Part shown: piece after piece, positions 20,366 to 25,144 of the stretch | Layout: each line of letters starts with the position of its first letter | Position numbering within the stretch: the first letter of the stretch is position 1 | Assembly (NCBI GenBank): GCA_006503475.1 | Contig: RSEH01000331.1 | Coordinates: forward strand, 1 to 45,167 | Direction: 5' to 3' | DNA from: Stentor roeselii | Taxonomy: Eukaryota > Ciliophora > Heterotrichea > Heterotrichida > Stentoridae | DNA length: 45,167 nucleotides | Program-made: the position numbers and the translations under genes | Notes under the pieces: generated by a model | What the model was told of the DNA's origin: nothing | Seen by the model: the letters and a program-made list of their open reading frames with translations, nothing else | Databases searched by the model: none

Positions 20366-21507
20366 TTATAGACGGTTGTTCATCATCAGCCGTTTCTTTA
20401 AAAAGCCTGAAAAATCAGCTGGTTTTGAAATGTTTCTGAAAATCGGCAAGTCCAGCAGGTCCTTCGCTGATAGTCGGTCTTCGGGTAAGACTTGAAGACA
20501 ATGTTGAATCATTTCGTTGAACTTTTCACTTACTTGGTCTTTATTTCTAAGAGATATCCTGCCGTTTATGGTTTTTCGAAGAATGGTTTGAAGAGGGTTT
20601 CGGAAAAAAGGAGGTTCTCCGTCGATCAGCTCGATGCAAACGACGCCGAAAGCCCAGATGTCGACTTTCATATCATAAGGCTGTTCAGTGCAGATCTCAG
20701 GTGCGAGCCAACAAGGAGTTCCTGCGACAGTATTCCTTGACTGATTCTCTAATGTCAGTTGGGCAGCGAAGCCCAAGTCACCAATTTTGATATCTCCTGA
20801 ATAGTTCATAAGAATATTGTCACTTTTAATATCTCGATGAATGCGAAAGTTCGAATGAATGAACTTCAGCCCTTCAAGCACTTCTTTCAATATAAACAAA
20901 GAATAAACCTCTGGGATTGGACTGTTTTTTTTCAATATGCCTGTCAAGCTGAAGTCCATTAACTCTTGAATTATGCAGAACTCGGACTCGTCCTCGCAAA
21001 GAAGATGATGTTGGACAATGTTCGCGTGAGTTGAAAGCTTTGTCAATGCGAACTCTTCTCGGATCTTTTCTTTTTCTTCTTCGTAGTCTAAGTGAAATAG
21101 CTTCGCCGCGAATTCGAGATCTGAATTTTTTTGTCTTACTCGGAATACTCGCCCTGAACCCCCTGAACCGATTTCTTTTAGTTTTATGTAATCGCTCTCG
21201 AAACTTGAGATTGTTGAATAAAGGGCTGAGGCTTTTAATGTTTTGTACTTTTTATTGATTACGGTGGACAGGTTCGGCAAATTTTTAATTTTTTCTTCTT
21301 CCTGTTCCTTCATCTTAACCTCTTCTCTAGAAAGTCTATAAATCTCAAAACAAACTAAACAAATCCTCTCAAATTCTTCAGTAGTTCTATAAACAATCAA
21401 ACACTCTTCACAAAAAAGTTCATCTACTTGACCTTACAACACGTCTTACACCGAGTTCCTCCAATCACAGGAAAAAGCTTCTTGAGACAATTCTTGCATT
21501 TAACCAT
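20366..21507 (-). CDS. STE-like protein kinase with N-terminal FYVE-like zinc finger
   Basis: Joining exon 1 (21438-21507) to exon 2 (20366-21423) across an apparent 14-nt intron gives 375 residues. The N-terminus has four C-x2-C pairs: CKNC (4-7), CKTC (20-23), CEEC (28-31) and CLVC. This is FYVE-like topology, though the basic R(R/K)HHCR motif is reduced to TRCKTC. A short coil follows. The kinase domain (about 102-360) has GSGGSG (109-114), Lys131, HRDIKSDN, DLGF in place of DFG, GTPCWLAPEI and DIWAFGV, so it should be catalytically active. TPCWLAPE is typical of STE20/STE11-like kinases. The start is 9 bp from the divergent ATG at 21517. Confidence 0.88.
21424..21437 (-). other. Apparent 14-nt intron
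   Basis: On the minus strand GTAAGGTCAAGTAG. Only a length of 14 (or 17) restores the frame. The 17-nt option would remove a zinc-ligand Cys, so 14 is preferred. Retention brings an in-frame TAG. Splicing yields CKTCYELFCEEC, completing the zinc-finger pattern. Confidence 0.75.
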
Positions 21508-22025: not shown

Positions 22026-22496
22026 ATGAGCAGGAACAGTCAAAGCTCGAAAAGAAGCTTCGTTGTTTGTATTGATGAGGAAGGATTCACTGATAAAAAA
22101 TGTAGGAAGTGCAGAAATCGACTTAGTGTTGAAGAAGTTCAGGTCTTTGCACCGATGGTTAAAGATCTTGAATTACTTTGTCTTAACTGCTATGCCAGGT
22201 AAGGGGTAATTAGCATTGTTGAAGAAAGAAGTAGGAAAAGAAGAAGCAGTGCTGGAAGGAATGAAGGAAAAGTTGTTGTTGATGGACCTGTCGATGCTTT
22301 AACTGAAAAAAGTCATTCAAGGTCTAATCGAAATTCAAGCTTAAAGGAAACTAGACAGTCTTTGAGGAATAAAGTACCTGAAAGGGTTTTTAATGATTTT
22401 CAGCATAATAGGAAAAAAACTGATGTGACTTTGTTTGCTAATGCTTCTTTTAATGGTGGAGTGTTCTTGAATGCTGTTCCTGGACAGTCGATTTAG
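22026..22496 (+). CDS. Small zinc-binding-like protein, one intron
   Basis: The exons 22026-22198 and 22214-22496 give 151 residues. MSRNSQSSKRSF leads into two C-x2-C pairs, KCRKCRNRLSV and LCLNCYAS, 30 residues apart, which could hold one zinc ion. A basic Ser/Arg-rich tail follows (RSRKRRSSAGR, SHSRSNRNSS), ending NAVPGQSI. It starts 2 bp after the previous stop, which is extreme even for this window. A dicistronic message is possible but not shown. No named family. Confidence 0.8.
22199..22213 (+). other. 15-nt intron
   Basis: GTAAGGGGTAATTAG, phase 2; retention gives an immediate in-frame TAA. Splicing links LNCYA to SIVEERSRKRR and opens a 283-nt second exon. Confidence 0.88.
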
Positions 22497-22499
22497 AGG

Positions 22500-23035
22500 T
22501 GTTTTAATAGATAAGAAAAAGGTTTGAATCGATGATTGTTTTTAGTTAAAGATTTTGAAGTTTTATAGAAATAGTAGGTGTTTATAGGTGATTTTAAAAG
22601 TAAGAAAAAGGTTTGAATTGATGATTATTTTTAGTTAAAGGTTTTGAAGTCTTTTGAAAATAGTAGTTTTGGAAAGGTTAGTTTTAAAAGATAAGAAAAG
22701 GTTTGAATGGATGATTATTTTACTTCAAGATTTTTAGTCTTATGAAAATAGTGTTTTTGGAGGTTAGTTTAAAAGATAAGAAAAAGGTTTAAATGGATGA
22801 TTATTTTACTTCAAGATTTTTAGTCTTATGAAAATAGTGTTTTTGGAGGTTAGTTTAAAAGATAAGAAAAAGGTTTAAATGGATGATTATTTTACTTCAA
22901 GATTTTTAGTCTTATGAAAATAGTGTTTTTGGAGGTTAGTTTAAAAGATAAGAAAAAGGTTTAAATGGATGATTATTTTTAGTTAAAGATTTTGAAATCT
23001 TATGAAAATAGTAGTTGTTTAAAGGTTAGCATAGT
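22500..23035. repeat. 86- to 90-bp tandem repeat, six units
   Basis: Units beginning (GA)TAAGAAAAAGGTTT lie near 22510, 22600, 22690, 22775, 22861 and 22947. The last three are exactly 86 bp apart and nearly identical; the first three are more diverged at about 90 bp. The array fills the gap between two convergent genes, ends six bases before the receptor stop, and has no open frame. Confidence 0.9.
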
Positions 23036-23041
23036 TAATAA

Positions 23042-23896
23042 CTAGTGAACAGTTGAAGCATAACTCAACTTTAAACTTGCACAACTAATATCGTCACTAT
23101 TTCCAAACTTTTCTGAATTAATTCTCATAACCTCTCTAACAGGTGTATTCAAAAAGAAAACAACTGCATTATAAAACCCTTGCAAGTTAAAAGATATCCC
23201 ACATATGATAATCATTAAAAGAACAAAGCAATCTTCCGTAAATAGTTCAGCTATTCTAAAAATCAAAAGAGGAAGTTCACAGATTGCAATTATAATTGCA
23301 TAGATCAGACCTCTATTGATAATTATTGCACTAGATGAAAAATTATCGATAATCTTTACTTTTTTGAATATTTTTACCGACATTGACAAGATTACCGTCA
23401 AGTTTGCTATGATCAGAAAGTAAAACATCCCAAATCTCCAGATAGTTCCTGTCAGTCCTGCTTTGAAACTGCATATTCCTGACTGGTTTGAATAACTTTC
23501 AGTTATTAGTGGCAAAAGGAATAAAATCAAAGGAATTCCATATGCGAAAAGAAACCATTTTTTTAGATTTATTGAATAGTTGACCTCTTCAAGAACTACT
23601 ATTTTATATATTGTTCGAGCTATGCATGATGCCCAAACGGCATTTGAAACAGAAAGAGAATTAAATATGTAGGTGTAAATTATGCACATGCTGTTAGTAT
23701 TAATGCTCGTCAAAAGTATTCCAGCAAGTGCTCGTATAGCATCATTCGCTGAGATCAACAGGAGTATTTCAAATGAATAACAAGAGTAAAGCCTTTTGGT
23801 AAATATTACAACTACTACACTGAAACCACCTAGAAAAGACAAGCAAGATGCAACAATGAAAGAATACTCAGCAAAAGTTTCATTCTTGCAATCCAT
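23042..23896 (-). CDS. Seven-helix receptor-like protein, paralogue 1
   Basis: A 284-residue protein with seven hydrophobic segments spread over its length and a short polar tail. Features shared with the two paralogues downstream: the N-terminal MxC..(E/Y)YS, YSCYSFEILLLISANDAIRA across helix 2, WASCIARTIYKIVV in helix 3, LLPLIT..Y....C, IWRF before helix 5, INRGLIYAIIIAICELPLL in helix 6, and LQGFYNAVVFFLN in helix 7. The last motif and overall layout fit cAMP-receptor-like/Git3-type GPCRs of protists. Two cysteines (extracellular loops) could form the usual disulfide. It probably senses an external ligand; coupling partner unknown. Confidence 0.8.
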   Translation of the reverse strand: MDCKNETFAEYSFIVASCLSFLGGFSVVVVIFTKRLYSCYSFEILLLISANDAIRALAGILLTSINTNSMCIIYTYIFNSLSVSNAVWASCIARTIYKIVVLEEVNYSINLKKWFLFAYGIPLILFLLPLITESYSNQSGICSFKAGLTGTIWRFGMFYFLIIANLTVILSMSVKIFKKVKIIDNFSSSAIIINRGLIYAIIIAICELPLLIFRIAELFTEDCFVLLMIIICGISFNLQGFYNAVVFFLNTPVREVMRINSEKFGNSDDISCASLKLSYASTVH

Positions 23897-24286: not shown

Positions 24287-25144
24287 TTAATTAATTGTAG
24301 AAGCATAACTAAACCTTAACGATTGATAAATAAAATCACTACTATTTCTTGATATTTCAGAGTTTTTTCTCAAAACATCTCTAACTGACCTATTAGAGAA
24401 GAAAACAATTGCATTTAAAAACCCTTGCAGTTGAAAAGAATCCAAAGATATAAAAACGAAAAGCAGAATAATACAATCACTTGAAAATATTTGAGCTATT
24501 CGAAAAGCCAACAGAGGAACTTCACAAATTCCAATAATAATCGCATAAATCAATCCTCTGTTAATAATAATAGAACTTGCAGGAAAATCATCAAATTTTG
24601 ATATTTTTTTGAATATTTTAACAGAAAGCACGAAACTAAACACAAGGTTTACTATTATCAAGAGGTAAGCCATTAGAAATCTCCAAATCGTCCCTATTAA
24701 GTCAGTCTTTAAATCACAAATTCCTGATTTATATGCATAGCTGTTAGTTATTATTGGAAGCAAGCATAGAGAAAAAGGTACACCGTATGTAAAGACTAAC
24801 CAAAAGTTAAAATTTTTTGAAAAAATGTCAACTTCTACTACAACTATTTTGTAAATTGTCCAAGTAATGAAAGATGCGAATGCTGCATTTGATATGGTGA
24901 GTGCATGAGCCATGTAACTGTAAAAAATACAGATGCTGTTGCTTATTTCAATGTTCACGATTAATATTCCAAATATTGCTCTTATCAAATCATTTGCAGA
25001 GATAAACAACAGAATTTTAAAAGAATAGCAAGAGAACATTTTTTTAGTTAGAATTGAAACTAATACTGCAAGACTTCCTACAAGAGATAAGCAAGAGCAT
25101 ACAAGGAATGAGTAATTTTGAAAAGATTCATAGTTGCACTTCAT
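24287..25144 (-). CDS. Seven-helix receptor-like protein, paralogue 2
   Basis: A 285-residue protein colinear with paralogue 1 without visible gaps beyond one or two residues. Shared blocks include YSFLVCSCLSLVGS, CYSFKILLFISANDLIRA, IWRF, SSIIINRGLIYAIIIGICE, and LQGFLNAIVFFSN. Divergence is spread evenly, with loops most changed; the C-terminal tail keeps SLRFSYAST(I/V)(N/H). Seven helices are visible and no signal peptide. The pair is closer to each other than to the third gene. Role as a plasma-membrane receptor is inferred from architecture. Confidence 0.8.
   Translation of the reverse strand: MKCNYESFQNYSFLVCSCLSLVGSLAVLVSILTKKMFSCYSFKILLFISANDLIRAIFGILIVNIEISNSICIFYSYMAHALTISNAAFASFITWTIYKIVVVEVDIFSKNFNFWLVFTYGVPFSLCLLPIITNSYAYKSGICDLKTDLIGTIWRFLMAYLLIIVNLVFSFVLSVKIFKKISKFDDFPASSIIINRGLIYAIIIGICEVPLLAFRIAQIFSSDCIILLFVFISLDSFQLQGFLNAIVFFSNRSVRDVLRKNSEISRNSSDFIYQSLRFSYASTIN

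Follow-up and report, generated by a model that had tools for sequence, protein, structure and literature searches.

The window, i.e. the whole 45,167-nt stretch of DNA that was analysed, is contig C266 of the 44.4-Mb Stentor roeselii assembly (522 contigs). On its minus strand a kinase gene was found in which the unspliced frame from the ATG at 21507 encodes MVKCKNCLKKLFPVIGGTRCKTCCKVK and ends at the TAG closing the 14-mer GTAAGGTCAAGTAG (21437-21424), with the kinase lying in another frame. Upon removal of GTAAGGTCAAGTAG, a 375-aa protein is obtained that combines four C-x2-C pairs with a complete PAK/STE20-like kinase domain. The 14-mer occurs once in the 44.4-Mb assembly and no second copy of the locus was found there, a query of 213 bases around the 14-mer matching its own place only. 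The features of the gene are listed below.

20366..21423, minus strand: exon 2, with the remaining finger, linker, kinase and stop codon (open frame)
20441..21190, minus strand: residues 102-351, protein kinase domain (Pfam PF00069), with PAK1 as the best match among solved structures
21350..21498, minus strand: FYVE-like finger of four C-x2-C pairs (residues 4-48), split by the candidate intron (spacing, Pfam)
21424..21426, minus strand: acceptor TAG (sequence)
21424..21437, minus strand: candidate 14-nt intron GTAAGGTCAAGTAG, phase 1, within the finger between Cys4 and Cys5
21428, minus strand: putative branch adenosine A10 (4-nt tail), alternative to A9, on the same grounds as A9
21429, minus strand: putative branch adenosine A9 (5-nt tail), preferred, based on family introns, scanned 15-nt candidates and PMC9505925
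21433..21437, minus strand: donor GTAAG (sequence)
21438..21507, minus strand: exon 1, 70 nt, running from the ATG to the first base of codon 24 (sequence, frame)

In line with U2-type introns of heterotrichs, GTAAGGTCAAGTAG has GT-AG ends and starts with GTA, and by sequence an A is located five nt before its 3' end (A9 of 14), the branch role of which is putative. Its length falls outside the 15 or 16 nt of these introns and it is therefore a variant, not an ordinary member of the class. A scan of the window for more 14-nt candidates yielded six places, and A at both positions 9 and 10 was found in GTAAGGTCAAGTAG only.

The kinase domain of the window protein is complete (PF00069, 204.1 bits against a cut-off of 31.7) and its nearest solved structures are those of PAK and further STE20 kinases, PAK1 being the best with an E value of 3.6e-51. 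The finger has eight cysteines with four residues between pairs 2 and 3, which is the spacing of FYVE (PF01363). The gathering score of 27.8 bits was not reached, neither by the finger alone (17.6) nor by the whole protein (13.6), and for this reason FYVE-like is the right name. The basic (R/K)(R/K)HHCR motif and the WxxD motif of FYVE domains serve in recognition of PI3P. In the spliced product GGTRCKTC takes the place of (R/K)(R/K)HHCR, and WxxD is absent before Cys1. The earlier description of a FYVE-like finger holds for the spacing and the eight cysteines, with the limits that the Pfam score stays under the cut-off and the basic phosphoinositide motif is missing.

GT..AG removals restoring the kinase frame were enumerated near the site and the resulting cysteine spacings compared. 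The 14-nt removal gives C-x2-C-x12-C-x2-C-x4-C-x2-C-x13-C-x2-C, with all eight cysteines kept, and it was the sole removal among those tried to produce the x4 spacer of FYVE between pairs 2 and 3. The two 17-nt options and a second 14-mer, GTTGTAAGGTCAAG, each cost one cysteine, while options of 11, 8 and 5 nt retain them all with spacers of x5, x6 and x7, respectively. When the products of the 14-, 11-, 8- and two 17-nt removals were scored, Pfam FYVE gave the 14-nt finger 17.6 bits and the 11-nt product 11.4; it was not listed for the 8-nt product or either 17-nt product. The sequence-only reading had proposed that removal of GTAAGGTCAAGTAG as 14 nt joins the four C-x2-C pairs to the kinase and that a 17-nt alternative would delete a zinc ligand; frame and spacing agree on the former, and the cysteine lost with either 17-nt option bears out the latter.

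The intron position in related kinases

A protein search of the assembly gave 109 kinase matches, the best 30 of which (L002-L031, the window gene being L002) were taken as the family set. Upstream of each kinase a finger was searched for as C-x2-C, a gap and C-x2-C, the gap being 12 nt, or 24-30 nt with a GT..AG segment whose removal leaves 12, so that intron lengths of 12-18 nt could be detected. At 18 of the 30 loci a 15-nt GT-AG intron was present at the identical place and phase (L006 is included here, though its finger is more distant from the kinase than in the others). A 14-nt intron was found at that place in two loci, the window gene and L020 on contig C504. Five loci have the finger without an intron (L018, L019, L024, L025 and L026) and another five have no such finger (L012, L022, L027, L030 and L031). 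In each of the 20 intron-bearing loci a single base separates the Cys4 codon from the intron, and two further finger loci from a second search, L043 and L044, have 15 nt at the same place. The eight cysteines are invariant across an 18-row alignment of family fingers.

Because position and phase are identical, the window intron is considered homologous to the usual 15-nt introns and one base shorter; the recurrence of a GT-AG intron at an identical codon base in 20 of 30 family loci also indicates that it is more than a chance occurrence. For the L020 intron, GTAGTTTTAAATAG, frame-restoring removals among lengths of 5-40 nt were 14 and 11 nt, with FYVE scores of 25.8 and 20.2 bits, respectively. 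Among the 14-nt cases of this study, the window gene and L020 are the only two with a position fixed by homology and no motif selection.

In a maximum-likelihood tree of the 30 kinases, L020 is sister to the 15-nt gene L023 (support 100/98), while L003, also with 15 nt, is weakly grouped with the window gene (83/79). Shortening from 15 to 14 nt thus probably occurred twice in the family, two separate one-base losses being the simplest reading because L020 is sister to a 15-nt gene. The five kinases with an uninterrupted finger fall into one clade (99/97), as would be expected had the intron been lost once.

Candidate 14-nt introns in other genes

The pattern GTAAGNNNANNTAG (GTAAG-N3-A-N2-TAG, 14 nt with A at position 9) was found 154 times in the assembly. 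The first 60 of 100 listed sites were sampled, together with eight extra 14-nt sites chosen for TAA at positions 8-10 and, as controls, 20 of the 259 analogues of 13 nt. At three of the 60 sites the junction made by removal falls within a single known domain. In L115, at C113:48587, the junction is at residue 132 of an Ank_2 match spanning 107-194 (108.9 bits) and the alignment to designed ankyrin proteins is ungapped across it; this is also the one candidate site for which 14 nt was the sole removal found among those tried. L083, at C51:62175, has its junction at residue 118 within a Mem_trans match of 40-203 (75.2 bits), and L075, at C28:116013, has it at residue 199 within an MFS_1 match of 120-285 (44.2 bits), with a two-residue gap beside the junction in the best solved alignment. 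At L102 and L088 open frames are joined without a domain spanning the junction. L102 rests on open frames and coding score; L088 is doubtful and kept as a weak case only, since an antisense frame of 146 codons covers the site. In the gene next to the window kinase, a 15-nt intron candidate (22199-22213, plus strand), GTAAGGGGTAATTAG, differs by one G from the 14-nt intron of L115.

A third 14-nt case free of selection for A9, besides the window gene and L020, was met at L006 (contig C321, reverse strand, offset 2704) in a scan of 250,604 bases. Here the possible 14-nt intron GTAAATTTAATTAG lies between frames of 116 and 355 codons, which its removal would join. This case rests on open frames and coding score, the upstream score being weak (0.3). 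The protein gave no Pfam match at E values up to 1; it has hydrophobic stretches near its ends.

Coding scores above 2 on both sides were obtained for four of the 13 sampled sites with TAA at positions 8-10 (one being the doubtful L088) and for none of the 47 others. When the same 60 sites were treated as if they were 10, 12, 13, 15, 16 or 18 nt long, no site passed, while lengths of 11, 14 and 17 nt, which share a frame, gave the identical three passes, L083, L102 and L115. The test of pretended lengths identifies the right frame shift; the exact length rests on the GT-AG ends, the domain alignments and the family position. A stricter test, in which an ATG had to be present upstream, 60 codons had to follow downstream and both frames had to be blocked, was passed by four of the 60 sites (L083, L097, L102 and L115), none of the eight extra sites and none of the 20 13-nt controls. 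With a looser test eight phases were flagged in the 60 sites and one of the 20 controls (L128, with a negative upstream score). The unspliced frame of L075 in phase 0 has 35 codons, so the site was missed by the filter.

Several candidates were rejected: L068, in which the upstream frame has a plausible natural C-terminus; L097, with negative coding scores; L107, in which the downstream frame is open even without removal; and the phase-2 flag of L075, which is in the wrong phase. The extra TAA site L145 passed another test but is weak, its SUI1 match stopping before the junction.

The 14-nt class is small. Motif analogues in the assembly numbered 259 at 13 nt, 154 at 14, 1051 at 15 and 162 at 16, and backward-pattern controls 734, 749, 612 and 751, respectively, being rarer than the true pattern at 15 nt only. 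These controls, which do not contain the true pattern's stop codons, make a poor background, yet they give no support for 14 nt. In the absence of a visible excess at this length, most bare 14-nt motif sites are taken as chance. The bare count was accordingly rejected as proof of a 14-nt class, 154 sites being no excess over 259 or 162 and the backward controls being commoner. With TAA at positions 8-10, 31 sites were counted at 14 nt against 11 for the 13-nt analogue, and the backward controls of these patterns were again commoner (82 at 14 nt and 84 at 13 nt). The A10-type pattern GTAAGNNNTANTAG has 42 sites, and in 10 of the 42 listed the TAA is shifted by one within the 14 nt. Some 20 excess sites against about 900 at 15 nt suggest a share of a few per cent at most, a rough figure for one type of donor and acceptor. 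A scan of 250,604 bases gave nine AG matches at 14 nt, of which four were motif-selected sites and a fifth overlapped one of those, against 40 at 15 nt. Controls ending in AA numbered 11 at 14 nt, so that the scan table taken alone shows only the 15-nt class.

Branch point, rival explanations and known short introns

In S. coeruleus the branch A is mostly at position 10 of 15-nt introns and position 11 of 16-nt introns, leaving a 5-nt tail, as described in the intron section of PMC9505925. Similarly, A was found at position 10 in 18 of 19 family 15-nt introns (L006 left out), with T in the exception, L009; among 40 scanned 15-nt candidates, A10 was present in 33 and T9 in 26. Extended to 14 nt, the tail rule predicts a branch at A9. 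The window intron has C8 A9 A10, and L020, L006 (GTAAATTTAATTAG), L075, L083, L102 and L115 have T8 A9 A10, so that the seven best 14-nt cases all read Y8-A9-A10; four of these (L075, L083, L102 and L115) were selected for A9, while the window intron, L020 and L006 were not. This suggests branching at A9, with the usual 5-nt tail and a 9-nt loop. Branching at A10 with a 4-nt tail may be an alternative, A9 being preferred; a count of A10 in eight of eight sites was set aside, as A9 had been a criterion in choosing some of the sites and two of them were weak.

The reading of GTAAGGTCAAGTAG as a true 14-nt spliceosomal intron, which has lost one nucleotide from the 15-nt intron of most finger-bearing family kinases, is given a probability of roughly 0.78. 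At the sequence level, frame and finger spacing need this very removal, the position is homologous to that of 15-nt introns, and 14-nt candidates recur in another branch of the family and in unrelated genes. We infer cutting of the RNA at the borders of GTAAGGTCAAGTAG, as well as the identity of the branch A. A one-base loss from an ancestral 15-nt intron at the same site would have produced the 14 nt. The spliceosome would recognise the GUAAG donor, use A9, with a pyrimidine before it and A10 after it, as branch point and join at UAG, by which the 5-nt tail would be retained and the lariat loop reduced from 10 to 9 nt. The original proposal of a 14-nt intron is supported, with 15-nt homologues in the paralogues and 14 nt recurring in L020 and, judged by open frames and domains, in unrelated genes. 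With somewhat less confidence, these cases are considered a likely small but distinct class of 14-nt spliceosomal introns, GTA-N4-YAA-N-TAG with an A9 branch and a 9-nt loop, that would have arisen repeatedly by one-base loss from 15 nt.

Three other explanations were weighed. The true intron could be 15 nt long with one base lost in the assembly, as the sequence-only reading had allowed. Such a length is the rule at this family position, GG and AA pairs are present where a base could drop (a long homopolymer is absent), the assembly holds a single copy of the locus with no second for comparison, and errors could cluster in A/T-rich introns. Against this, all 30 family loci gave a single-frame translated match over kinase residues 110-340 (7,473 kinase codons). 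As these loci had the 30 highest single-match scores among 109, the choice is biased against frameshifted copies, and open-frame pairs were therefore also used to bound the error rate. The 250,604 bases contained 363 adjacent pairs. Both frames had a coding score above 2 in 15 of them: four were 14-nt sites, three were non-overlapping and eight were others, some of which resemble gene borders or 15-nt introns. Even if all eight were frameshift errors, 0.01-0.04 errors would be expected in 22 family introns (about 330 nt), against two observed; the probability of two or more is 6e-5 to 9e-4 under assumed sensitivities of 1 to 0.25. This bound replaces an earlier estimate (29,310 exon bases, Fisher p 1.2e-4) in which all 30 loci, being the best-scoring ones, had been counted. 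The loss would also need to recur in L075, L083 and L115. A missing base is thus judged unlikely, frameshifts apparently being too rare elsewhere.

The second explanation is use of a different removal. Open frames give the frame class and not the exact length, and several GT..AG options restore the frame, the 11-nt GTAAGGTCAAG even retaining every cysteine. Use of this removal or of a 17-nt one is nevertheless hardly credible: the former comes with a five-residue spacer and the lower FYVE score, the latter with a lost cysteine, and the 3' ends of the homologous family introns match the 14-nt border in the window gene. Alternatively, translation might start downstream in exon 2, at the first in-frame ATG (MKEQ), leaving the finger unmade and the 14-mer a chance or leader sequence. 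Exon 2 alone does encode the kinase and offers this ATG, but the finger halves flank the 14-mer, its eight cysteines are those invariant in the family alignment, and the paralogues have an intron at the same base, which makes a downstream start very unlikely.

The standard stop codons and the 15-nt introns of the assembly fit a heterotrich of Stentor type. Among known short introns, those of S. coeruleus are the closest comparison. The annotation given in PMC9505925 counts 8806 introns in this species, with a length of 15 nt in 8173 and of 16 nt in 633, in line with the earlier statement that Stentor introns are reported as 15 to 16 nt. They share GT-AG ends, a conserved GUA start, A/T-richness, a branch A mostly five nt from the 3' end and the standard code, but all are 15 or 16 nt as against 14 nt in the window gene (PMC9505925, annotation and intron section). 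Introns of another heterotrich, Blepharisma stoltei, are likewise predominantly 15 and 16 bp; UGA there encodes Trp, and 14 is unmentioned in the intron description of that source (PMC9942806). For heterotrichs in general about 95% of introns are given as 15 bp and the rest as 16 bp in the intron comparison of PMC11441545. In the same comparison Loxodes magnus, of the sister group of heterotrichs, also has very short introns, but with a mode of 17 bp and a negligible share under 16 bp, although mapping admitted lengths down to 10. The mikrocytids, an unrelated lineage, resemble Stentor in a narrow size range at the lower limit, but every intron there has 16 or 17 nt and so exceeds the window intron by two to three nt, according to the intron data of PMC10245619. 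No report of a 14-nt spliceosomal intron was found in the literature searched, among the matches listed; one match to '14 nt' was a distance from telomeres, not an intron.

If the main reading is true, 14 nt would lie below the published spliceosomal introns found and would lower the known minimum spacing of donor, branch point and acceptor in one catalytic cycle, and the 15-nt floor of published heterotrich introns would not be the limit of the spliceosome. At one site of a single genome the paralogues have 15 nt, 14 nt or no intron, a series that amounts to a natural experiment on this size limit. Genes with 14-nt introns would be split or cut short by annotation that admits 15 and 16 nt only.

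Elsewhere in the window, an intergenic tandem array is present at 22503-23029 (plus strand), with a period of 86, six copies and 89% matches. Two adjacent open frames of 284 and 285 codons (23042-23896 and 24287-25144, minus strand) are 56% identical; they look like multi-pass membrane proteins and a tandem duplicate.
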